Below are positions 34,916-50,168 of a stretch of 50,790 bases of DNA, piece after piece. Source of the DNA: Bacteroidota bacterium (lineage in GTDB: Bacteria > Bacteroidota > Bacteroidia > Bacteroidales > PUMT01); contig PUMT01000191.1 of NCBI GenBank assembly GCA_003551495.1, forward strand, positions 1 through 50,790. Reading direction: 5' to 3'. The notes under the pieces are model-generated. The model was not told the origin of the DNA. It searched no databases and was given only the letters and a program-made list of their open reading frames with translations. A program made the position numbers and the translations under genes. How positions within the stretch are numbered: position 1 is the first letter of the stretch; every line of letters begins with the position of its first letter.

Positions 34916-37900
34916 TTACCATCCCGGAAGGAAATTCAAACCGAATACACCTCCCATAATGCCATCCCTGTGGATCGGGAGAGCGTAATAAGGTTCAAGA
35001 ATCAGGTACCCGAACATATTCACCCTCATTGAAGCCCCGGCACTGAAAAAGGGGAAACGTCGCGACATATCATCGGGGTCAAGGGTCGGACTAATGTCGC
35101 TTGTCCATGCAACACCGGCGTCAAAAAAGAGGTTCAGTTCTGTAAAGAAGAAACCCGATTCAATTACAGCCAGAACTTCAGGCCCGGTAAACGGCAGCCT
35201 TAATTCTGCGTTGGCAACAAGCATACGTGTACCTATCATGTCGTTAAAAGAGAACTGAGAATCACTAATTGATTGCAGTTCGTAAAACTGGTTGGTGGTA
35301 TAGCCCCGCAGGAATCCAGGGAATCCAAGATAGAGGGGATAAAAGATATCGTTTCGGGCATCCCTGCCGTATCTTCCGCTGTGGTAAAAGCGGTAGGAAA
35401 AATTAAGAGGGTTGAAGAAATGATACCTCCTGTAATCTGCAATGAACTGGTACATATCCACCTCACCGAAATATTTGTCAACGTGGAAACGGTATCTGTG
35501 CCCCCTCATGGGTGATGCCATACCGAAGTATGAATTGTCACCGACATAGGCGGCATTTGTCCGGAAAAGAGTAAAACCTGGCGGTGCATCCAACTGTTCC
35601 CTGGATTGCCCTATCTGGAAACCAAACTGATCGTAATAATGGTTGAAAACATCTATACGGTAATAGTACCTTGCCAAAGATACCGATGATTCAATTCTCC
35701 TTGTAACTGAAATGGGATACTGTGCAAACAAAGAGAGCTGGTCTTCGAAAGTACGAATATTGAAGAGGCGGAAATTATCTACAACAATATATTCGTCATC
35801 ACCTACTGGAAGCAGCTCCTGTGAAAACCCCATACTTGCCGAGCGGTAGGGAATATGCGAAAGTGTTGCCCCCCAGTCAATCCGCCCCTCACGGTTGATA
35901 TAGGATGCCAGTCCTGCAAAGTCATATATCTCACCTTCTACGGCCAGTACAGTAAAAAGGCTCCTTTCTCCCACAATATCGCTGAAATACATGTTCACAC
36001 CGCCTGACATACCGGTACCGTAGTAAGTATCGAATGCAATTCCCACACCACCTGTATTGCCGATATAGTCAAGCTGGAACTGTGGCCTGAAGGGTTTCAC
36101 TTCAAATGAGTCTTCAGGGATCTCTTCCACCTTGGCATAATCTGTCATTTTTTTGTCGACAATATTTGTTGCCACCCTCTGGAACGGAGGAAGGGTCGCC
36201 GCAAGCAGATCCACATTTTTGGGGTTGACCTCTTTTCTTTCGAAATCGTCTATATGTGCAGAGTAAATACTGTAATTGTTATCAAAAAAGTATGTGTAGG
36301 CAATATTCCCTTTTTCCCTGGAAATGCTCATTGCCGGGGCCAGCCATGTTATCCCGCTTATTCCCGTAGGATATTCGGTCATACGATACACCTTACCGTC
36401 AGTTAGCCTGTATTCATACATATTTCTGAATCCGTCACTGTCGGACAGGAAAAATATTGATTCGTTGTCTGGTGAAAAAACCGGATTGACATTGTTGGCT
36501 CCCTTAAAAACGGGGAGAACAGTTATTTCATTACCGTTTTCAAGGTCCACGATCCCTATGTTGAATTTATAGTTGGGGTCGGTGTTTGTATCACCGGGTT
36601 GCCTGCGGTCAGTTGAGAACAACAGTTTATCTCCTTCACCGGACCAGCTTACATGGATATATGAATGCCTGTCGTTTGTAACCTGCTCAACCTCTTCGCT
36701 TTCCATGTCATAAATATAAATGTTGTTGCGTCCCCCCGCCAGTCCGTTCATAACTATCTTACTGCCGTCGGGCGACCAGGATGGGTTATTGAATGAAGGC
36801 ACTCCGGGGATTTTTATTTCTTTTGGCGAACGTCGTGGTCTTTCGGTATCCACAATGAACAGCTTGTTTCTTCCCCTTTTGACACCCACATATGCAAAGT
36901 GCCGGCTGTCGGGCGACCATGTTCCCATTGACTCCAGAAAGTTGAATCCGTCAATATCCCTTGTCCTTGTTGAACTGGTAATTTCGCGGACAATTTTGCC
37001 GTCTTTTGATCTGGCTATGAACAGGTCAAGTGTAAAAACATCCTTTTCAGAGAAAAAGGCAACATATTCGCCGTTTGGACTAATGGACGGCGATACATTC
37101 ATTCGGCCTGCAGTTTCTTCGAAAAGGATTTTTTCCCCGGTCATTTCAGGTATTGTTTCGGGAATGAATGTCCTGTAATGGCTTTCATAAGAGTTCCTCC
37201 ATACTTCAGAAAAGGTTGAGGGGCTCATATCAAGTGTGGTTTCAATGGCTCGCCTGTAACCCCATTTTGCTGTTTCCATGAACAGATCGGGAATTACATC
37301 ATCTCCCCACGTGCGGCCGACAAATGCCATGAAGGCGTGACCCCATCTGTAGGGGAAGTAGTCATGGTATCTTGCCAGGTCATCCACTGTAGGGAAATCA
37401 TCTTGAATAAGTGCATCCCTCATCCACATAGCAGTGTGCGGGTCAACGCTGCCAATTGACATGTATTCTGCCATTCCCTCAACCAGCCATAATGGCAGGT
37501 TGGCAAACGATACCCTGTTTAGTGTATCCTTTCTGGTCAGCATATTAAACTGGAATGCGTGCACCAGTTCGTGACCGAGAACATGATTGGTCTGGGCATT
37601 AGTTTCAAGGATCGGGAAGATCACCCTGTTCTTGAGTGATTCGGTAACCCCGCCGGTACCAATACCGATAAATGAACTTATTGCCATTGTCTGCTGGAAG
37701 TCGGGATGGTTTTCATATATAATCACCGGATTGGGGGTCTCTATTGAGTCCCTCATTACAGCATAATGGCGTTTAAACCATTTTTCCGACATTACACCAA
37801 GTTCATTTATAATACTGTCATCTTCAAAGTAATGGTAAATGTCAAAATTTGAAGTGCTGAATACCTTGTAGTCAAAGCTTCTGTAACTTGGTTTGTTTCT

Positions 37901-38008
37901 GCCGAACCCCTGGCCAAAGGCATCTTCATAACCGGTCATCCACACTGCTAAAACCATTAGCAGTGTAATCAGTGACCTTGAACAATTTTTAACAGCTATA
38001 GTTATCAT
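34916..38008 (-). CDS. Exported HExxH peptidase - TolB-like propeller - Omp85-like barrel fusion
   Basis: The 1030-residue protein has a signal peptide (1 to about 32), then a peptidase-like domain with HELVH (146-150) and WLVEGMAEY (174-182), the zinc-site pattern of gluzincin (peptidase MA-like) families. A TolB/PD40-type propeller follows at about 285-600, with repeats SPNGEYVAFFS, WSPDSRHFAYVG, WSPDGSKIVMNG, WSGEGDKLLFSTD and FSPDNESIFFLSD. The C-terminal part (about 640-1030) is a beta-rich barrel with FLRGY (899-903), matching the Omp85 loop-6 motif, and ends in an aromatic residue. The propeller takes the place where BamA has POTRA domains. Function is unknown; a surface or periplasmic protease anchored by its own pore is one reading. 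Confidence 0.88.
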   Translation of the reverse strand: MITIAVKNCSRSLITLLMVLAVWMTGYEDAFGQGFGRNKPSYRSFDYKVFSTSNFDIYHYFEDDSIINELGVMSEKWFKRHYAVMRDSIETPNPVIIYENHPDFQQTMAISSFIGIGTGGVTESLKNRVIFPILETNAQTNHVLGHELVHAFQFNMLTRKDTLNRVSFANLPLWLVEGMAEYMSIGSVDPHTAMWMRDALIQDDFPTVDDLARYHDYFPYRWGHAFMAFVGRTWGDDVIPDLFMETAKWGYRRAIETTLDMSPSTFSEVWRNSYESHYRTFIPETIPEMTGEKILFEETAGRMNVSPSISPNGEYVAFFSEKDVFTLDLFIARSKDGKIVREITSSTRTRDIDGFNFLESMGTWSPDSRHFAYVGVKRGRNKLFIVDTERPRRSPKEIKIPGVPSFNNPSWSPDGSKIVMNGLAGGRNNIYIYDMESEEVEQVTNDRHSYIHVSWSGEGDKLLFSTDRRQPGDTNTDPNYKFNIGIVDLENGNEITVLPVFKGANNVNPVFSPDNESIFFLSDSDGFRNMYEYRLTDGKVYRMTEYPTGISGITWLAPAMSISREKGNIAYTYFFDNNYSIYSAHIDDFERKEVNPKNVDLLAATLPPFQRVATNIVDKKMTDYAKVEEIPEDSFEVKPFRPQFQLDYIGNTGGVGIAFDTYYGTGMSGGVNMYFSDIVGERSLFTVLAVEGEIYDFAGLASYINREGRIDWGATLSHIPYRSASMGFSQELLPVGDDEYIVVDNFRLFNIRTFEDQLSLFAQYPISVTRRIESSVSLARYYYRIDVFNHYYDQFGFQIGQSREQLDAPPGFTLFRTNAAYVGDNSYFGMASPMRGHRYRFHVDKYFGEVDMYQFIADYRRYHFFNPLNFSYRFYHSGRYGRDARNDIFYPLYLGFPGFLRGYTTNQFYELQSISDSQFSFNDMIGTRMLVANAELRLPFTGPEVLAVIESGFFFTELNLFFDAGVAWTSDISPTLDPDDMSRRFPFFSAGASMRVNMFGYLILEPYYALPIHRDGIMGGVFGLNFLPGW

Positions 38009-42246: not shown

Positions 42247-43059
42247 TCACTTCCAGATGTCAGATTTTAAAAGATTGATACTGCTGTCAAAAAACATTCT
42301 TCCAATTTTCCCGAAATAATCGGTAAAATCTGATACAAAAAAAAGATCCTCATCCTGCCTGCTGCCTGCCAGAAGATTTTCGGATGCCAGCTTTTCTTTA
42401 AGATGACGTGCTACAATTTCAGCCGAATCAATTACCTCAACCCGGAAATCGTAGTACTTGCGTATCTGGTTCCTGATTATCGGATAATGAGTGCACCCAA
42501 GGATCATAACCTCAATTCCTTCGAGCAGTTCATTCGAGAGATACGTCCTGATAATGGCATTGCTTATATCATCATATATGAAACCTTCCTCTATCATCGG
42601 CACAAGGAGGGGTGCAGCCATCGATACAACCTCTGCGCCAGGGTTTTTTTCACGAATCTTGAGCGTATAGGTATTACTGTTAATTGTGTTCTTGGTTCCT
42701 ATAACACCAATCTTTGAAGCAGGAAATTTTTCTGTAACATAACTTACTACAGGGTCGATCACATCAATTACAAGGGCTTTGTCACCGAAAATCCTGTGCA
42801 GTTCAGTAAAGGCTGTTGCGGAGGCAGTATTACAAGCCACAAGAATGGTTTTGCAGTTGTAGGTAAGAAGGAAATCTGCTATTTTCCGGGAATAATAAAT
42901 AATTGAATCAGCTGATTTGTCACCGTACGGCAGGTGTGCAGTGTCTCCAAAATAGATGATCCGTTCATCAGGCAGAAGCTGCTTAATAGCCGAAGCAACA
43001 GTAAGTCCCCCCAAACCCGAATCAAATATGCCGAGTGGTTGATTTGGCTCTAATTCCAT
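42247..43059 (-). CDS. murI: Glutamate racemase
   Basis: MurI makes D-glutamate for peptidoglycan. The 270-residue product has GIFDSGLGGLTV with Asp13, and the two catalytic cysteines Cys76 (VACNTASA) and Cys189 (LGCTHYP). It is convergent with the carbonic anhydrase homologue. It lies after the terminator of the bamA-skp operon, so it needs its own promoter or read-through; none was recognised. The palindrome GTCAAATTTGAC (43123-43134) lies 64 bases upstream. Confidence 0.96.
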   Translation of the reverse strand: MELEPNQPLGIFDSGLGGLTVASAIKQLLPDERIIYFGDTAHLPYGDKSADSIIYYSRKIADFLLTYNCKTILVACNTASATAFTELHRIFGDKALVIDVIDPVVSYVTEKFPASKIGVIGTKNTINSNTYTLKIREKNPGAEVVSMAAPLLVPMIEEGFIYDDISNAIIRTYLSNELLEGIEVMILGCTHYPIIRNQIRKYYDFRVEVIDSAEIVARHLKEKLASENLLAGSRQDEDLFFVSDFTDYFGKIGRMFFDSSINLLKSDIWK

Positions 43060-43146
43060 TACTGTTGGGTAAATTATACATTTAATTGAACTGCAGCAAA
43101 GAAAAGCAAATTAATTGTTATAGTCAAATTTGACTGGTTGTGCAGA

Positions 43147-43181
43147 AATAAAAAAATACCATCCTTTCGGGGATGGTATTT
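43147..43181 (-). terminator. Intrinsic terminator of the bamA-skp operon
   Basis: A perfect 11-bp stem, AAATACCATCC (43154-43164) and GGATGGTATTT (43171-43181), with loop TTTCGG. On the minus strand it is followed by TTTTTTTATTT (through 43147), so it ends transcripts coming from the skp genes. It lies 24 bases past the stop of the second skp gene. Confidence 0.92.
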
Positions 43182-43204
43182 TATCTGAGACTTATCAGAG
43201 TGGC

Positions 43205-43726
43205 TTATTCAATTCCCAGCTCACGTTTGACAAGCGGCTGGATATTAATGCTCTGATCGCCATAATACAATAGTGAGTTGCCGCTGATGTCGAATACATA
43301 AATCAAGCCTTCCTCTTCAGCAACTTTTGTGATAGCCCTCTCAATTTTATCGAAAATAGGCTGCAGCAGCTCCATTTGCTTTCTTTGTAGATCATCCTGT
43401 GCAGTCATCTGGAACTGTCTTATCCTCTCCTGAATTTCGTTCAGCTCCCTTTCCCTCATCTGCTTTACAAGAGATGTGAGAGTGTCCTGCTGTTCTGTAA
43501 ATTGCTGAAGCTTCTGGTTGAATTCAACCTGCATCTGCTCCAATTGTTCTATAAGCTTTTCTTCTTCCCGCTGTAATTCTCTTTGTGCCTGAGCTCTTTC
43601 AGGCATTTCCCTTAGCAGTTCATTTGAGTTTATGTGTCCGAATTTAAGGTCCTGCTGAGCAAAAACTCCTGCTCCTGTCATTAATAATAATGCAGAAAGG
43701 AATAACGGTTTTAAATACTTTTTCAT
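43205..43726 (-). CDS. Skp/OmpH-family periplasmic chaperone (second copy)
   Basis: The 173-residue product has a signal peptide (MKKYLKPLFLSALLLMTGAG, ending VFAQ) and a long coiled-coil mature part with KFGHINSNELLREMPE near the start. The C-terminal strand region contains LIYVFDISGNSLLYYGDQS. Skp trimers hold unfolded outer-membrane proteins for BamA. It is the last gene of the operon, 155 bases after the first Skp gene and just before the terminator. Confidence 0.92.
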   Translation of the reverse strand: MKKYLKPLFLSALLLMTGAGVFAQQDLKFGHINSNELLREMPERAQAQRELQREEEKLIEQLEQMQVEFNQKLQQFTEQQDTLTSLVKQMRERELNEIQERIRQFQMTAQDDLQRKQMELLQPIFDKIERAITKVAEEEGLIYVFDISGNSLLYYGDQSINIQPLVKRELGIE

Positions 43727-43767
43727 GCTTTTAAAAATAATAGTTAAAAAGGTTAATATTCAGTTAG

Positions 43768-43785
43768 TTAATTGTTGACAATTAA
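43768..43785. promoter_or_regulatory. 18-base palindrome between the two skp genes
   Basis: TTAATTGT, two bases, then ACAATTAA form a perfect palindrome 42 bases upstream of the second skp start. Its position in the 155-base spacer suggests a possible operator, but no full promoter was recognised beside it, and AT-rich palindromes can occur by chance. Confidence 0.3.
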
Positions 43786-43881
43786 AAAATTATAGTACAT
43801 CTTAATGCAACATTTTACATATGCCGGCTGGATTAACGTTAAAACTTAAAATAATATCTTTGTGTTAACTATTTTCAATCC

Positions 43882-44391
43882 TTAATACCCCAGTTTTGAA
43901 AGAACTTCATCACTGAGGTCGTATCTGGGATTGGTGTAAAGCAGGGTGGGAGAATTTGCCATATCAAATATTACGGCATAATTTCCCTCTTCAGCTATAT
44001 TAGCCACGGCATTGTACACCTGATCCTGAATAGGCCCTATCAGCTCTTCCTGCTTCTTCTCCATTTCACCTTCAGGTCCGAAATACTTGTGTTGCAGCTT
44101 TTTGGCATCTGCTTCCAGGTTTATAATTTCTTCCTCCCTTTTTTTTCTCATCTCTTCAGACATCAGTGCCCTTTGAGACTGAAAATCGCGATACAGCTGT
44201 TCTATCCTGCCGTATATATTCTCGATCTCCTTTTCCCAGCCTTCGATCAACTCTTCCAGCTGCTCCTGGGCGGCCCTGTAAGCCGGAATACTGTTGAGGA
44301 TATAATCTGTATCAACAAATGCATAACGCTGGGCAAAAGAAACCTGTGCAGCTGCAAACAGAACTGTTAAGATCAGGAGTGTTTTTTTCAT
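43882..44391 (-). CDS. Skp/OmpH-family periplasmic chaperone (first copy)
   Basis: The 169-residue product has a signal peptide (MKKTLLILTVLFAAAQVSFA) and a coiled-coil mature domain starting RYAFVDTDYILNSIPAYRAA. The C-terminal region NYAVIFDMANSPTLLYTNP matches the family. It starts 23 bases after bamA, the standard bamA-skp arrangement. The two copies differ clearly in sequence, so they are old paralogues, not a recent duplication. Confidence 0.92.
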   Translation of the reverse strand: MKKTLLILTVLFAAAQVSFAQRYAFVDTDYILNSIPAYRAAQEQLEELIEGWEKEIENIYGRIEQLYRDFQSQRALMSEEMRKKREEEIINLEADAKKLQHKYFGPEGEMEKKQEELIGPIQDQVYNAVANIAEEGNYAVIFDMANSPTLLYTNPRYDLSDEVLSKLGY

Positions 44392-44414
44392 TGCTCAATA
44401 TTTAGGTTAAAAAA

Positions 44415-46895
44415 CTAAAATTGTTGTCCCAGAACAAAGTGAATCTGTCCTTTATTGGCTCCCGGCCTGTGTGGTATCTCATCAAATCCGTAACCCCAGT
44501 CAACACCAAGCATTCCGAACATTGGCAGAAAAGCTCTTACTCCTATACCTGCCGAACGCTTAATGGAAAAGGGCTGGAATTCCCTTGTGCTGTACCAGGC
44601 ATTACCGCCTTCGATAAACCCAAGAAGATAAATGGTTGCCTGAGGATTCAGGGAAAGTGGATACCTGAGTTCCATAGTGAACTTATTGTAAAGGTTACCT
44701 GCTTTACTGCCATCCCTTATAGGGGTCAGCGAACCGTTTTCATAACCCCTTAAGGCAATGGTTTCTCTTCCGTAAAGGTTGTAACCGGTCATTCCGTCGC
44801 CGCCAAGATCAAATCCCTCGAAGGGAGAGGGGCCAATATCGCTGTTATAATACCCCAGGATACCAAACTGTGCTCCGGAATAAAATACCAGGTCGCCTAT
44901 TATTCTTGAATACCATTTCCCTTCAAAAGTCCATTTATGGTATTCAATCCACCTGTACTTCTCATGAGGTTCCATCTGACTGTAGTCCTTGTCGTTCATA
45001 AGTGAATACGGAGGAGTCATCTGCAAGGTAAGATTGAAAGTATTTCCTCTTCTTGGATATATAGGCTGGTCAATTGAGTTTCTTCCGAAAGATGTCTTAA
45101 AACTAAGGTTATTTGACTGTCCGTCAGAGAAAAGGAAATAACCTGTCCACTCATTCAGACTGTACCTTTGAAAACTTATTTCATTATAAAGTGTAAAGAA
45201 GTCATCCGGCCAGTCGAGTCGCTGTCCGAATCCTACAGATGCTCCTGATATTTTAATGGATGCGCCTTCTTCCACTGTACGGTCCCATATATCCGTCTGA
45301 ATTGTATGGAAAGCAGAAAGAGAAAGCGAATTGGGATTTATTCCGCCAACGTAGGGTTCAATGAAGCTGATATTATAAGCCTGGTAATAGCTGCCGTTAG
45401 ACTGGGCGCGAATACTGAGGGTTTGCCCGTCTCCGGAAGGCAGAGGCCTCCAGGCATCCCTGTTGAGTATATTACTTGTGGAGAAATTATTGAAACGCAC
45501 CCCGAGTGTACCAATAAGCATGCCTGCCCCCCAGCCGCCTGATATTTCTAGCTGGTCATTTGCCTGTTCTTCAACAACATACTCTATGTCAACAGTCCCG
45601 TCATCAGGATTGGGTATAGGCCTTACATCCAGGGCTTCCGGATTAAAGTGGCCAAGATTGGCAAGTTCGCGCTGGCTTCTGATTATGGCTGACTTGCTGA
45701 AAAGCTGTCCGGGCTTTGTCCGCAATTCCCTGCGGATAACGTGTTCGTTGGTCTTATCATTACCGGTAATGATCACACGGTTTATCCTGGCCTGATCACC
45801 TTCCCTGATCCTCATTTCCAAATCAATTGAATCACCGTCAATTCGAGTTTCAACAGGAGTAACCTGAAAGAAAAGGTATCCGTCATCAAGGTAGAGGGAG
45901 CTTACAGAGTTATCAGCCAGCTGAAGCCTTTCGGTGAGCTTTGTTTGATTGTAAACTTCCCCCTTTTCTATGCCCAGGACAAAGTCAAGGTACTCCGAAG
46001 GGTACTTGGTGTTGCCCACCCATTCAACGTCCCTGAAGTAATACTTTTTTCCTTCTTCTATATCAATATCGATTTCAATCCTGTTGTCGCTTATAAAGTA
46101 TATCGAATCGGCAACTATTTTGGCATCCCTGTATCCGTTTTCATTATAAAAGGTGATAATTCTTTCGAGGTCCTTCTCGAAATCGGATCTGATATACCTT
46201 GAACGCCTGAAAATATTGATGAGGCTTCTCTTTCTGGTATCATCCATTGTACGTTCAAGCCGGAAATCAGAAAAAGCTTCGTTACCGTAAAAATTGATGT
46301 CGGCAATTCTCACCCTGTCATTTTTATCAATATCTATGTCAAGAATCACCCGGTTTGGCATTTCAGGATCGTCATTAACTTTTATCTCCACATCCGCGTT
46401 AAAGAAGCCTTTGGATTCAAGGAAATTGTCAATTGTTGTTTCTGCTTTGTTCAGGGTGTTGCGCGTTACCATAGTACCGCTCCTCAGGTTTAGCTTTTTG
46501 GTTAAGTCCTGTTCCTCAGATCTTCTTAATCCCTCAATACTGAATGTGGATAATCTGGGAGGCTCCTCAAGGTATATATCCAGGTAAATGTTATTGTTTT
46601 CAATTTTTGTTGCTTTAATCCTTACATCTGAAAACAACCCCTGGTTCCATAATTTTTCTATCGCACCTGATATAGCTTCTCCAGGAACGGTTATTCTGCT
46701 CCCCACCTCAAGACCGGATAATCCTATTACTACGTAATGATCCACGTAATTGACCCCGGATACTGTAATTCCGCCTATTGTGTATTCACGGGGCGAGGAG
46801 TAGTCCATTACAGGCGGGGATATCTGCTCCTCCTGGGCATTCAGTATCATGCCGCAAAAAACCAGAATCAGCAAAATACTAACTCTTTTCACCAT
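44415..46895 (-). CDS. bamA: Outer membrane protein assembly factor BamA
   Basis: BamA inserts beta-barrel proteins into the outer membrane. The 826-residue product has a signal peptide (about 1-20), about five POTRA domains (40-415; the fourth near FRDVEWVGNTKYPSEYLD) and a C-terminal 16-strand barrel (about 430-826). The loop-6 motif RGY lies at 716-718 (ALRGYENGS), and the protein ends in Phe, as expected for a BAM substrate. It lies 30 bases after uppS and 23 bases before skp. Confidence 0.96.
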   Translation of the reverse strand: MVKRVSILLILVFCGMILNAQEEQISPPVMDYSSPREYTIGGITVSGVNYVDHYVVIGLSGLEVGSRITVPGEAISGAIEKLWNQGLFSDVRIKATKIENNNIYLDIYLEEPPRLSTFSIEGLRRSEEQDLTKKLNLRSGTMVTRNTLNKAETTIDNFLESKGFFNADVEIKVNDDPEMPNRVILDIDIDKNDRVRIADINFYGNEAFSDFRLERTMDDTRKRSLINIFRRSRYIRSDFEKDLERIITFYNENGYRDAKIVADSIYFISDNRIEIDIDIEEGKKYYFRDVEWVGNTKYPSEYLDFVLGIEKGEVYNQTKLTERLQLADNSVSSLYLDDGYLFFQVTPVETRIDGDSIDLEMRIREGDQARINRVIITGNDKTNEHVIRRELRTKPGQLFSKSAIIRSQRELANLGHFNPEALDVRPIPNPDDGTVDIEYVVEEQANDQLEISGGWGAGMLIGTLGVRFNNFSTSNILNRDAWRPLPSGDGQTLSIRAQSNGSYYQAYNISFIEPYVGGINPNSLSLSAFHTIQTDIWDRTVEEGASIKISGASVGFGQRLDWPDDFFTLYNEISFQRYSLNEWTGYFLFSDGQSNNLSFKTSFGRNSIDQPIYPRRGNTFNLTLQMTPPYSLMNDKDYSQMEPHEKYRWIEYHKWTFEGKWYSRIIGDLVFYSGAQFGILGYYNSDIGPSPFEGFDLGGDGMTGYNLYGRETIALRGYENGSLTPIRDGSKAGNLYNKFTMELRYPLSLNPQATIYLLGFIEGGNAWYSTREFQPFSIKRSAGIGVRAFLPMFGMLGVDWGYGFDEIPHRPGANKGQIHFVLGQQF

Positions 46896-46925
46896 ACTCT
46901 ATCTTACTATTTGGTTAATATTACT

Positions 46926-47669
46926 TTATTTACATTGTTCACCAGTTTTCCCGAACCTTCTTTCCCTTTTCTGATAACTTATGATAGCTTCGTAAAAATC
47001 TTCCTTGCTAAAATCAGGCCAAAGTTTTTCTGTAAAGTATAATTCTGCATACGCTATTTGCCACAAGAGAAAATTACTGATCCTGAACTCGCCGCTCGTC
47101 CTTACAAGAAGTGCCGGATCCGGTATTCCTGCAGTCACCAGATACCTGGCAAAAACCTCTTCATTTATTTCCTTCAACTTCCCGGCATTGAAATCCTTGC
47201 AAATTTTTGCAGCGGCTTCAGCAATCTCCCATCTGGAACTGTAACTTAATGCAATAACGAGTGTTAAACCTGTATTATTTTTGGTAGCTTCTGTTACTTT
47301 TTGCAATTCACTTGTAATAGCCGAAGACATACAGTCAAGATCTCCGGTTATTAACAAACGGATGTTGTTCTTAATTAGTGTTTCAGACTCAGCTTTAATG
47401 GTTGATGCCATAAGGTCCATTAAAGCATCAATTTCTGCTTTTGGCCTGCACCAGTTTTCTTTAGAAAATGCAAAGAGTGTAAGGTATTTTATGCCCAGTT
47501 CCCCGGAGGCTTCTACAACATTGCGTACAGCTTTTATTCCCTGCTGATGTCCGAATATGCGTTCACTGCCCCTTCGCTTAGCCCAGCGGCCGTTACCATC
47601 CATAATTATGGCAACATGTTCAGGCAGCTTGCTGATTATTATTTTATCCTTCAGTGACATTTCGTTCAA
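46926..47669 (-). CDS. uppS: Isoprenyl transferase (undecaprenyl diphosphate synthase)
   Basis: UppS adds isopentenyl units in cis to make the C55 lipid carrier for peptidoglycan and other envelope polymers. The 247-residue product has the catalytic Asp24 in IIMDGNGRWAKRRG, then FGHQQG, TLFAFSKENWCRP and the end-region RTSGEFRISNFLLWQIAYAE. ATG 47669 is used; 47660 is also possible. It lies 9 bases after the upstream small barrel gene and 30 bases before bamA. Confidence 0.96.
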   Translation of the reverse strand: MNEMSLKDKIIISKLPEHVAIIMDGNGRWAKRRGSERIFGHQQGIKAVRNVVEASGELGIKYLTLFAFSKENWCRPKAEIDALMDLMASTIKAESETLIKNNIRLLITGDLDCMSSAITSELQKVTEATKNNTGLTLVIALSYSSRWEIAEAAAKICKDFNAGKLKEINEEVFARYLVTAGIPDPALLVRTSGEFRISNFLLWQIAYAELYFTEKLWPDFSKEDFYEAIISYQKRERRFGKTGEQCK

Positions 47670-47678
47670 ATGAGGTGG

Positions 47679-48335
47679 TTACCAGTAAACAGGACAATCA
47701 CCTTTCCTTTCAAAAGGTTTAATTGTGATGAAAAAACCTGCCAAAGATACCCAATCATTATTATGAATCAAAGAAGGATCGTTTTTTTGACCAAAATTTA
47801 TAACTCCGTCAATTTTATCTGAAAATGTTTTTTTTAGCAGCCATTCGGCGCCGATTGTTACTTTTTTGGATATCCCGTATTTCAGACCGCCTCCGAAAGG
47901 GATACTGAGATAACTGTCAGATACCCCTGACCCGGAAATAAAAATATAAGATAAACCGCCTGCAATAAAGGGACTGAATCCTTTTTTGAAGATGGTTGTT
48001 TCAAAAGGAAGGAAATTGAACTCCATTAAGAGTGTTAAGTCCATGAAATCGGATTCAAAAGATGCTCCCCTGTGTTGCTGGAAATAGTTGTCAAAATCTC
48101 TGTCAGATGCATAAAGCCGGCCGAAATTTATACTTGTCCGTACCGAATAGTGATTGTCAAGGTTGTATTTTATCAAAGCCCCAAGGGAAGGGGATACTGA
48201 ATAAAAATGCCTTGACGGATTGATGTCTCCAAGGTAATAGGATGTTCCTGTAAAGCCCCCGAACTCTATGCCTTCCTGTGCACTGACATTTACAGAAAAG
48301 ATGATTATGAGAAATGCTGTAATTGTTGTTTTCAT
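47679..48335 (-). CDS. Small outer-membrane beta-barrel protein (DUF6089-like)
   Basis: The 218-residue product has a signal peptide (ending VNVSAQ) and alternating hydrophobic strands typical of an 8-10-strand barrel (EFGGFTGTSYYLGDINPS, then GGLSYIFISGSG and IPFGGGLKYGISKKVTIGAE). It ends CPVYW, an aromatic C-terminus. I recognise it as the type of protein (DUF6089) encoded beside uppS and bamA in many Bacteroidetes. Its exact function is unknown; position suggests a link to outer-membrane assembly. Confidence 0.8.
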   Translation of the reverse strand: MKTTITAFLIIIFSVNVSAQEGIEFGGFTGTSYYLGDINPSRHFYSVSPSLGALIKYNLDNHYSVRTSINFGRLYASDRDFDNYFQQHRGASFESDFMDLTLLMEFNFLPFETTIFKKGFSPFIAGGLSYIFISGSGVSDSYLSIPFGGGLKYGISKKVTIGAEWLLKKTFSDKIDGVINFGQKNDPSLIHNNDWVSLAGFFITIKPFERKGDCPVYW

Positions 48336-48357
48336 TTAAAATAAAGCTGTTCCGGTT

Positions 48358-49098
48358 TTATTGTCTGAAGGGGAATTCGTTGAACCTGTAAATTAGATTA
48401 ATTGTAGTAATGTAATAAATATCATTATGCTTCGAAAAATTTGATGTAAAACCGTCTATATAATCGCTTGTAGTATAGCGCCCCCCTATCTCTATCCCGA
48501 GATCGGTTTCGTAGCTTATTCCTAACCTGAGACCGATCCCGGCAGGTATAACAAGTGCTGCATTTCCGTGTTCAATATTGCTTGTTTCCCGCCTTTCTTT
48601 CAAAGCTTCATTGGGCATAACATGGAAGAAAATTCCCCCGAACCCGCCAAAAGCGTAGGCCGACAGGGTTGAATAGCTTGCAATACGCCCCCTCCGATCG
48701 GTTCTCCTTGTCCTGAAGGGATAATCCTTCAAAAAAGAGAATTCTATTCTTGTGGAGGGTTCAAAAAAGAGGGTGTTGAAAGTGTAACCCCTTGCTTCGT
48801 TGCGGCCGCCTTCGTCATCACCGCTGAGCCACCCAAGTGTTATTGCTGTGTTCAGCGAAAAAAAGTAATGGAAATTGTATCTCAGTCCTGCATTAATTGA
48901 AGGACGTGTCTGAAAAAGTTCAAAATCCTTCAATCCGTAAAGGTTGTCTTCATCTGAGGTTCCTCCAATATCTCCAAAATAATTTGAAAATCCCATTCCG
49001 CCATAAACTTCATAAGGAGTAGAACGCCACGGCTGAGACCAGGCAAAAAGTGCCGAAACTGCAAACAGGGAGATAAACAGCAAAGACTTTTTAAACAT
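48358..49098 (-). CDS. Outer-membrane beta-barrel protein (DUF6089-like), first of a tandem pair
   Basis: The 246-residue product has a signal peptide (MFKKSLLFISLFAVSALFAW, then SQ) and a beta-barrel pattern (YEVYGGMGFSNYFGDIGGTS, then PAGIGLRLGISYETDLGIEI and YITTINLIYRFNEFPFRQ). The YFGDIGG region is similar to YYLGDIN of its neighbour, so the two may be distant paralogues. It begins the minus-strand envelope operon and lies 22 bases upstream of the second barrel gene. Confidence 0.8.
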   Translation of the reverse strand: MFKKSLLFISLFAVSALFAWSQPWRSTPYEVYGGMGFSNYFGDIGGTSDEDNLYGLKDFELFQTRPSINAGLRYNFHYFFSLNTAITLGWLSGDDEGGRNEARGYTFNTLFFEPSTRIEFSFLKDYPFRTRRTDRRGRIASYSTLSAYAFGGFGGIFFHVMPNEALKERRETSNIEHGNAALVIPAGIGLRLGISYETDLGIEIGGRYTTSDYIDGFTSNFSKHNDIYYITTINLIYRFNEFPFRQ

Positions 49099-49289
49099 TG
49101 CAAATAATTTTTCCAGGTGTTAATTATTATTTCTACGAAAAAATCATACAGACGTTCGGAAAAAAGTAAATAAAATACAAAACCACCTCATTTTTTAAGT
49201 CAACTTTAACAGTTTTTTTAGCTTTGGTAAGTTATAAAATTATTCTAAATCAGGATATTTATTAACAGCACTTTTTTACTTACGGGAAA

Positions 49290-50168
49290 TCAGTTGCGCT
49301 TGTCAACACCCCACATCAGCTTGTTTCTGAGGGTGCTGTAAAAATTCTGGTAATTGAGGTTTACAAGTTTGATTGAAAATGGCGCTTTCTGAAGTTTAAT
49401 TTTCATCCGGTTTTCTATCCTGGCAGTATAAAAGTCCATTGAAAGCAGGAATTCATTGTAACGGAAATCCACCTCCAGCGTAATCTCATTGTTGTCAGGT
49501 ATTACAAGCGGCCTTACTGTCAGATTATGCGGAGCAATAGGTGAAATGATAAAAACACCTGAATCAGGAGTTATTATGGGGCCTCCGGCACTGAGAGAGT
49601 AGGCGGTTGATCCTGTTGGAGTTGATATAATTAATCCGTCTGCCCAGTAAGAGTTCAGAAAATCGCCATTCAGGTAGGCATGAATAGTTATCATTTTGGA
49701 ATCTTTCTTCTGAATGGTGATCTCATTCAGACCATAACTGAAGCTTCCGAAAATGTTTTCCGGGTAAGCAATTTTTATAAGGCTCCTTTCCTCAAGAGTG
49801 TAATCGCCTTTCAATATACAATCTATTGCCTGGTTAATTTCTTCTTTTGCAATACTTGACAGGAATCCGAGCTTACCGCTGTTAATCCCTATAATTGGAA
49901 TCCCGGAATCTCTTACAAGTGAAATGCTTTCCAGAATGGTTCCGTCGCCCCCTATGGACAGTACAAAGTCGGTTTTTTCATCAAAATCCTCAAATCCGGA
50001 AAAAGTTTTACCGGGCACCTGATCGATACCAGTATTTGTTTTTAGGAAATTGCTGAAAGGACTGAATACTGAAACTTCCACATTGTTATCTGTTAATCTC
50101 TGGAGCAGCTCCCTGACATTATCTGAAAAATCGGTTGAGAAACTTCTGCCGTATACTGCGATCTTCAT
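49290..50168 (-). CDS. nadK: NAD kinase
   Basis: NadK phosphorylates NAD to NADP. The 292-residue product has the family GGDGT motif at 73-77 (SIGGDGTILES), the NE motif in YGLNEITIQKK, and STPTGSTAYSLSAGGPI with the conserved glycine-rich loop. It lies 40 bases downstream of the CBS-domain gene. A 191-base AT-rich spacer without a recognised promoter separates it from the barrel genes. Confidence 0.96.
   Translation of the reverse strand: MKIAVYGRSFSTDFSDNVRELLQRLTDNNVEVSVFSPFSNFLKTNTGIDQVPGKTFSGFEDFDEKTDFVLSIGGDGTILESISLVRDSGIPIIGINSGKLGFLSSIAKEEINQAIDCILKGDYTLEERSLIKIAYPENIFGSFSYGLNEITIQKKDSKMITIHAYLNGDFLNSYWADGLIISTPTGSTAYSLSAGGPIITPDSGVFIISPIAPHNLTVRPLVIPDNNEITLEVDFRYNEFLLSMDFYTARIENRMKIKLQKAPFSIKLVNLNYQNFYSTLRNKLMWGVDKRN

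Follow-up and report, generated by a model that had tools for sequence, protein, structure and literature searches.

The window, a 50,790-nucleotide stretch of DNA from a Bacteroidota bacterium (contig PUMT01000191.1), encodes a single polypeptide in which a zinc protease is followed by a TolB-like propeller and an outer-membrane barrel. With roughly even confidence, the protein can be read as an outer-membrane-anchored, periplasm-facing zinc metallopeptidase engaged in the maturation or quality control of outer-membrane proteins. The function of the family is apparently unstudied. The combination of propeller and barrel was already known in 2014, whereas the peptidase, the division into two subfamilies with an intact active site (A and B) and one without (C), and the link of subfamily B to tamB were not found in the open-licence literature.

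Domain architecture of the window protein

The complete gene was located on the minus strand as an uninterrupted ORF (34916–38008) running from ATG to stop and encoding 1030 amino acids, comprising a signal peptide, a gluzincin-type peptidase, a TolB-like propeller and an Omp85 barrel. All features described below lie on this strand. The signal peptide (residues 1–32, 37913–38008), predicted from the sequence, is a poorly conserved N-terminal hydrophobic helix, and the sequence near the cleavage region contained no lipobox cysteine. The metallopeptidase domain (residues 47–285, 37154–37870) was mostly helical in the model. The Pfam model Peptidase_MA_2 scored 25 bits on the whole protein and 28 bits on the domain alone (cut-off 32.4), while the BSP profile reached 25 bits on the isolated domain, above its cut-off of 23.8. 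On subfamily-B homologues, Peptidase_MA_2 scored 54–62 bits, over its cut-off, and a single subfamily-B chain (L158) matched PD40 (80 bits), Peptidase_MA_2 (54.6 bits) and Omp85 (39.5 bits), all above cut-off. A PDB search with the sequence profile of the peptidase domain gave no match. The motif HELVH (residues 146–150, 37559–37573) holds the two predicted zinc ligands and the predicted catalytic Glu (H146, E147, H150), and it is followed by WLVEGMAEY (residues 174–182, 37463–37489), which includes E181 and in which E177 is the probable third zinc ligand. This combination of HExxH and a downstream Glu ligand, typical of gluzincins of the peptidase MA clan, was present and conserved in subfamilies A and B.

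The propeller (residues 286–603, 36200–37153) was recognized in the Pfam scan of the whole protein by PD40 at 52 bits in three significant stretches. Six four-stranded blades over residues 286–600 could be counted from DSSP in the full-length model (pLDDT 74.5). TolB was the closest propeller fold, with a Z score of 26.4 and 2.4 Å over 248 residues (VIA-align), and the TolB equivalog TIGR02800 scored 93.6 bits against a cut-off of 343, its best stretch falling inside the propeller repeats. The likeness to TolB of the Tol-Pal system thus concerns the six-bladed PD40 propeller (Z 26); the window protein differs in having no TolB N-terminal domain and in having its propeller fused to a peptidase and a barrel.

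A linker of 42 residues (604–645, 36074–36199) with 31% mean pairwise identity separates the propeller from the C-terminal part (residues 646–1030, 34919–36073). Judged by profile and predicted fold, this part is a 16-stranded barrel of the Omp85 superfamily, which as defined by Heinz and Lithgow includes POTRA-less classes (PMC4104836). No Omp85 match was returned by the whole-protein Pfam scan at E ≤ 1, while the barrel alone scored 28.6 bits against PF01103 (cut-off 24). At E ≤ 0.1, PF01103 matched 15 of the 91 subfamily-A barrels, and it reached 39.5 bits in subfamily B. A barrel-only model built from 91 sequences contained 16 strands by our own count (pLDDT 87.7, pTM 0.80), and all 50 listed fold matches were BamA, Sam50 or TamA at Z 20–22 (VIA), including the BamA proteins of F. 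johnsoniae and P. gingivalis. The Omp85 loop-6 motif RGY (residues 901–903, 35300–35308) aligned with the RGY of the BamA encoded in the window; among the 91 subfamily-A proteins, G902 was invariant and R901 was kept in at least 90%. Comparison of the subfamily-A barrel with three BamA proteins by hhalign gave 25%, which is weak alone though in register, and the assignment rests on Pfam and fold rather than on this comparison. Neither patatin nor POTRA was matched in the Pfam scan of the window protein, and the linker showed no POTRA pattern of strands and helices in the models; being only about 42 residues long, it leaves no space for a POTRA domain between propeller and barrel.

These results agree with the original prediction, made from the letters alone, which had placed all parts in one uninterrupted frame (giving no strand) and had described a HELVH...WLVEGMAEY zinc site (now H146-E147-L-V-H150 ... 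E177-G-M-A-E181-Y), at least five PD40-type repeats, a propeller in the place of POTRA and a C-terminal Omp85 barrel. Structure prediction, which it had proposed as a check, recovered the peptidase, the propeller and the 16-strand barrel. The profile search that it had suggested confirmed PD40 and, on the isolated barrel, the Omp85 profile PF01103, with Peptidase_MA_2 at 25–28 bits staying under its cut-off. The survey of genomes that it had recommended showed the same domain order recurring across the phylum, as described next.

Distribution, subfamilies and active-site conservation

The gene is present as a single copy in its own genome. At E ≤ 1e-10, with the distant subfamily C counted in, 41 of 60 related genomes held a relative; at E ≤ 1e-20, the figure for Bacteroidota was 173 of 296 genomes. 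Named hosts included Pedobacter, Olivibacter, Pontibacter, Cesiribacter and Nafulsella, together with many Bacteroidales MAGs. The three-part protein measured 1008–1142 amino acids in all groups across Bacteroidota, and full-length orthologues of the window protein were 40–85% identical to it. Two deviating subfamily-A copies were also seen: one with a longer open frame of 1238 codons (L166:3007-6720), which suggests that the N-terminus is extended or that translation starts late, and one with a single in-frame TAA (G420:C11:25321-28416), which may be a true pseudogene or an assembly error.

A tree of the peptidase-propeller region resolved three monophyletic groups, of which A and C were fully supported and B received 91/75. 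These subfamilies are ancient and share all three parts; hhalign of the barrels gave 99.9% for A against B and 100% for B against C. The window gene belongs to subfamily A. Subfamily B, about 28% identical to A, occurs in other Bacteroidota families, sometimes alongside A in one genome. Subfamily C is found in Bacteroidales, where about 85 of 148 genomes carry C, 21 carry A and nine carry both.

The residues H146, E147, H150, E177 and E181 were invariant in the 91 subfamily-A and 15 subfamily-B proteins, as were G178, A180 and Y182 in the 91 subfamily-A proteins. About half of the subfamily-A rows are contig-scan loci, which provide no test of active-site conservation because the scan patterns contained the motif; in the genome-search set, which is unbiased by motif patterns, the active-site residues were likewise invariant in A and B. 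Since this invariance holds both in A and in B, at about 28% identity to A, catalysis appears to be under selection. Within subfamily A, the peptidase domain was the most conserved part, with 52% mean pairwise identity and 29 invariant columns, compared to 44% for the propeller and 44% for the barrel. A comparison of close species (dN about 0.09, dS saturated) indicated purifying selection on all three domains.

Among 30 subfamily-C proteins, HExxH was retained in none. Position 146 was never His, position 147 never Glu, and position 150 was His in one protein; E177 was left in five of the 30. Structural residues, among them G178 and G223, were kept, as was the full architecture. In the Bacteroidales loci L168-L197, most glutamates were also lost, and the barrel motif read ATNMRGF. 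The loss of HExxH with retention of the fold marks subfamily C as a pseudo-peptidase, and as its scaffold persists without catalysis, the conserved job there, at least, would not be proteolysis. The original prediction had named free variation of the catalytic residues among family members as a finding that would speak against it; such variation occurs in the sister subfamily C only and is absent from subfamily A itself.

A member with no barrel was found on plasmid pSR116 of Salinibacter ruber (L206:5914-7815). It consists of peptidase and propeller only (633 amino acids), shares about 39% identity with the window protein, has an intact active site and is annotated as a 'basic secretory protein-like protein'. 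The 493-amino-acid gene following it was considered as a split-off barrel and rejected, being a serine carboxypeptidase S10. This copy indicates that the soluble part can occur on its own. That speaks for the barrel as an anchor and suggests that anchoring is its main role.

Gene neighbourhoods and the tamB operon

The window gene is probably monocistronic and lies about 6 kb from a canonical uppS-bamA-skp-skp-murI cluster, in which BamA (44415–46895) is a separate gene. The region 42247–50168 contains the usual Bacteroidota bamA cluster with murI, two skp/OmpH genes, bamA, uppS, two small outer-membrane beta-proteins (one PorG-like) and NAD kinase. The same genome also encodes further Omp85 proteins and TamB genes. 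Neighbours of subfamily A were lineage-specific, with a PBP1A-like gene in relatives of Pedobacter and an AlkP-like gene in the clade of the window gene, and conserved neighbours were accordingly dropped as a direct clue to the role of subfamily A. The PBP1A-like transglycosylase gene, identified by eye, was the immediate upstream neighbour, in the same orientation, in 25 named loci among L083-L117, mostly from Pedobacter and relatives.

Of the 20 subfamily-B loci (L227-L246), 14 from six GTDB families had a TamB-family gene, rnr (RNase R) and the subfamily-B gene in this order on a single strand, separated by -8 to +210 bp. The TamB assignment was based on PF04357 (131 bits in L231), which also matched within the operon in several genomes, and on hhalign of the aligned upstream proteins against the TamB of the window's own genome (99.9%). 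In four genomes (G068, G183, G295, G302), the sole clear TamB domain found was the one in this operon. The operon points to outer-membrane biogenesis. The subfamily-B genomes examined also carry an unlinked POTRA-type Omp85 of about 700 amino acids, so TamB may have another partner there. No TamB-like gene was found in the flanks of the window gene or of about 80 subfamily-A loci.

Possible function and relation to known systems

In the favoured reading of a periplasm-facing metallopeptidase, the 16-stranded Omp85 barrel would sit in the outer membrane and the TolB-like propeller just below it, at the position of POTRA in BamA and TamA, where it may bind partners or clients. Clients, most likely proteins entering or crossing the outer membrane, would be cut at the membrane by the N-terminal gluzincin domain, and such cleavage may serve maturation or quality control, comparable to BepA and DegP for BAM. 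In Omp85 proteins, the domains N-terminal to the barrel are periplasmic. This topology, together with PlpD, a patatin-type Omp85 protein whose enzyme domain is held in the periplasm (PMC11116518), favours a peptidase tethered under the outer membrane, and by this analogy we infer a periplasmic position for it. Both the tamB operon of subfamily B and the frequency of pseudo-enzyme C assign the family to envelope biogenesis and suggest that the scaffold is useful beyond cutting. Peptidase activity, the type of client and, for subfamily A, a role in outer-membrane biogenesis are likewise inferred. The propeller may plausibly select the substrates. The original prediction had offered two proposals, a self-anchored protease and a secretion pore with an attached processing enzyme. 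The former is the better one, as now suggested by the conservation of HExxH and Glu in A and B, Omp85 topology and the barrel-less Salinibacter member; the latter found no support, and PlpD keeps its enzyme in the periplasm (PMC11116518). Its three-domain reading also stands, while it had missed the pseudo-peptidase sister subfamily C and the position of subfamily B behind tamB.

A possible, though clearly less probable, explanation is that the protein acts mainly as an insertase or chaperone, a variant of BAM or TAM in which a BamB-like propeller replaces POTRA and receives clients, with the peptidase chiefly a client-binding scaffold and catalysis secondary. Subfamily C, which kept the full architecture without HExxH in all 30 proteins examined and occurs in roughly 85 of 148 Bacteroidales genomes, is consistent with this, as are the location of subfamily B behind tamB, the Omp85 barrel with its RGY motif, and the idea of a BamA-BamB fusion for WD40-Omp85 proteins (Heinz and Lithgow, PMC4104836). 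However, the catalytic residues are invariant in A and B, and the peptidase is the most conserved part of A, which would be needless for a mere scaffold. A related idea, put forward tentatively and at low probability, is that the peptidase-propeller-Omp85 family adds a third type to the outer-membrane partners of TAM, TamA and TamL being the other two; its head in the POTRA place would dock a TamB/AsmA-type periplasmic bridge and edit cargo by proteolysis, the Bacteroidales paralogue having lost catalysis and kept a docking or insertase role. TamA and TamL, the partners of TamB, share the Omp85 barrel, and subfamily-B genes follow a gene of the TamB family; TamA and TamL differ in having three POTRA domains and, in TamL, a lipobox cysteine, neither of which occurs in the window protein. 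Moreover, an RNase R gene intervenes in subfamily B, and the window gene has no tamB neighbour.

Remodelling of the cell wall or envelope is improbable. Here the peptidase would act on proteins tying the outer membrane to peptidoglycan and Tol-Pal, and the propeller would bind Pal-like proteins as TolB does. TolB is indeed the closest propeller fold and the PBP1A-like gene precedes the gene in those 25 loci, but this neighbour is limited to one lineage while other clades have other neighbours, and propeller resemblance tells little about ligands. A secretion pore or surface protease is likewise less likely than a periplasmic peptidase; that the barrel moves the peptidase-propeller part to the cell surface or releases it, serving nutrition or attack as in the old type Vd idea, is very unlikely. 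The peptidase does follow a signal peptide, and secretion or a periplasmic location is conceivable for the barrel-less Salinibacter copy, yet the N-terminal domains of Omp85 proteins are periplasmic, a folded six-bladed propeller would not fit through a 16-stranded barrel, and no autotransporter feature was seen. PlpD, the model for this idea, retains its enzyme in the periplasm (PMC11116518). A chance fusion, or an assembly or reading-frame artefact, for which no supporting point was found, is refuted by the recurrence of the architecture in much of the phylum, three monophyletic subfamilies and purifying selection on all domains, leaving it a negligible probability.

Among known systems, BepA and DegP resemble the favoured periplasmic metallopeptidase in the proposed periplasmic cleavage of outer-membrane proteins during or close to their assembly, and BepA is also an HExxH zinc peptidase, whereas the window protein carries its own barrel. 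BepA and DegP rely on TPR or PDZ domains and are soluble or peripherally attached. PlpD is the closest enzymatic Omp85 protein with tests and likewise combines enzyme and barrel in one chain; it has a patatin lipase and one POTRA where the window protein has a zinc peptidase and a propeller. No study of a peptidase-propeller-Omp85 family was found in the open-licence literature, nor were the peptidase part, the active/inactive split or the tamB link. PF00149 denotes metallophosphoesterases, not zinc peptidases. It is carried by the 'Metallo' class in the catalogue of Heinz and Lithgow, the architecture of which differs from that of the window protein (PMC4104836). The original prediction had stated that no described function was known for the arrangement and had missed this catalogue, which in 2014 introduced the name WD40-Omp85 for propeller-Omp85 proteins and guessed at an assembly role. 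Compared by description, that class is alike in having a TolB-like propeller directly N-terminal to an Omp85 barrel with no POTRA, and the window protein differs by its peptidase domain, which is absent from the text for that class (PMC4104836). WD40 is not mentioned in a paper on TAM evolution (PMC4494059). BamP, a subunit of the F. johnsoniae BAM complex with its loop in the BamA seam, was considered as an identity and rejected, the text having no mention of a peptidase or propeller (PMC12611786).

Outer membranes of bacteria are built by Omp85 proteins, a process whose policing is still poorly understood outside Proteobacteria. Whether some Omp85 machines edit their own cargo becomes a question testable by point mutants with this family, which is widespread in Bacteroidota, brings a protease of its own and offers an inactive paralogue for comparison and, in one branch, a tamB operon, and the natural pair of active and pseudo-enzyme forms separates catalysis from scaffold function.
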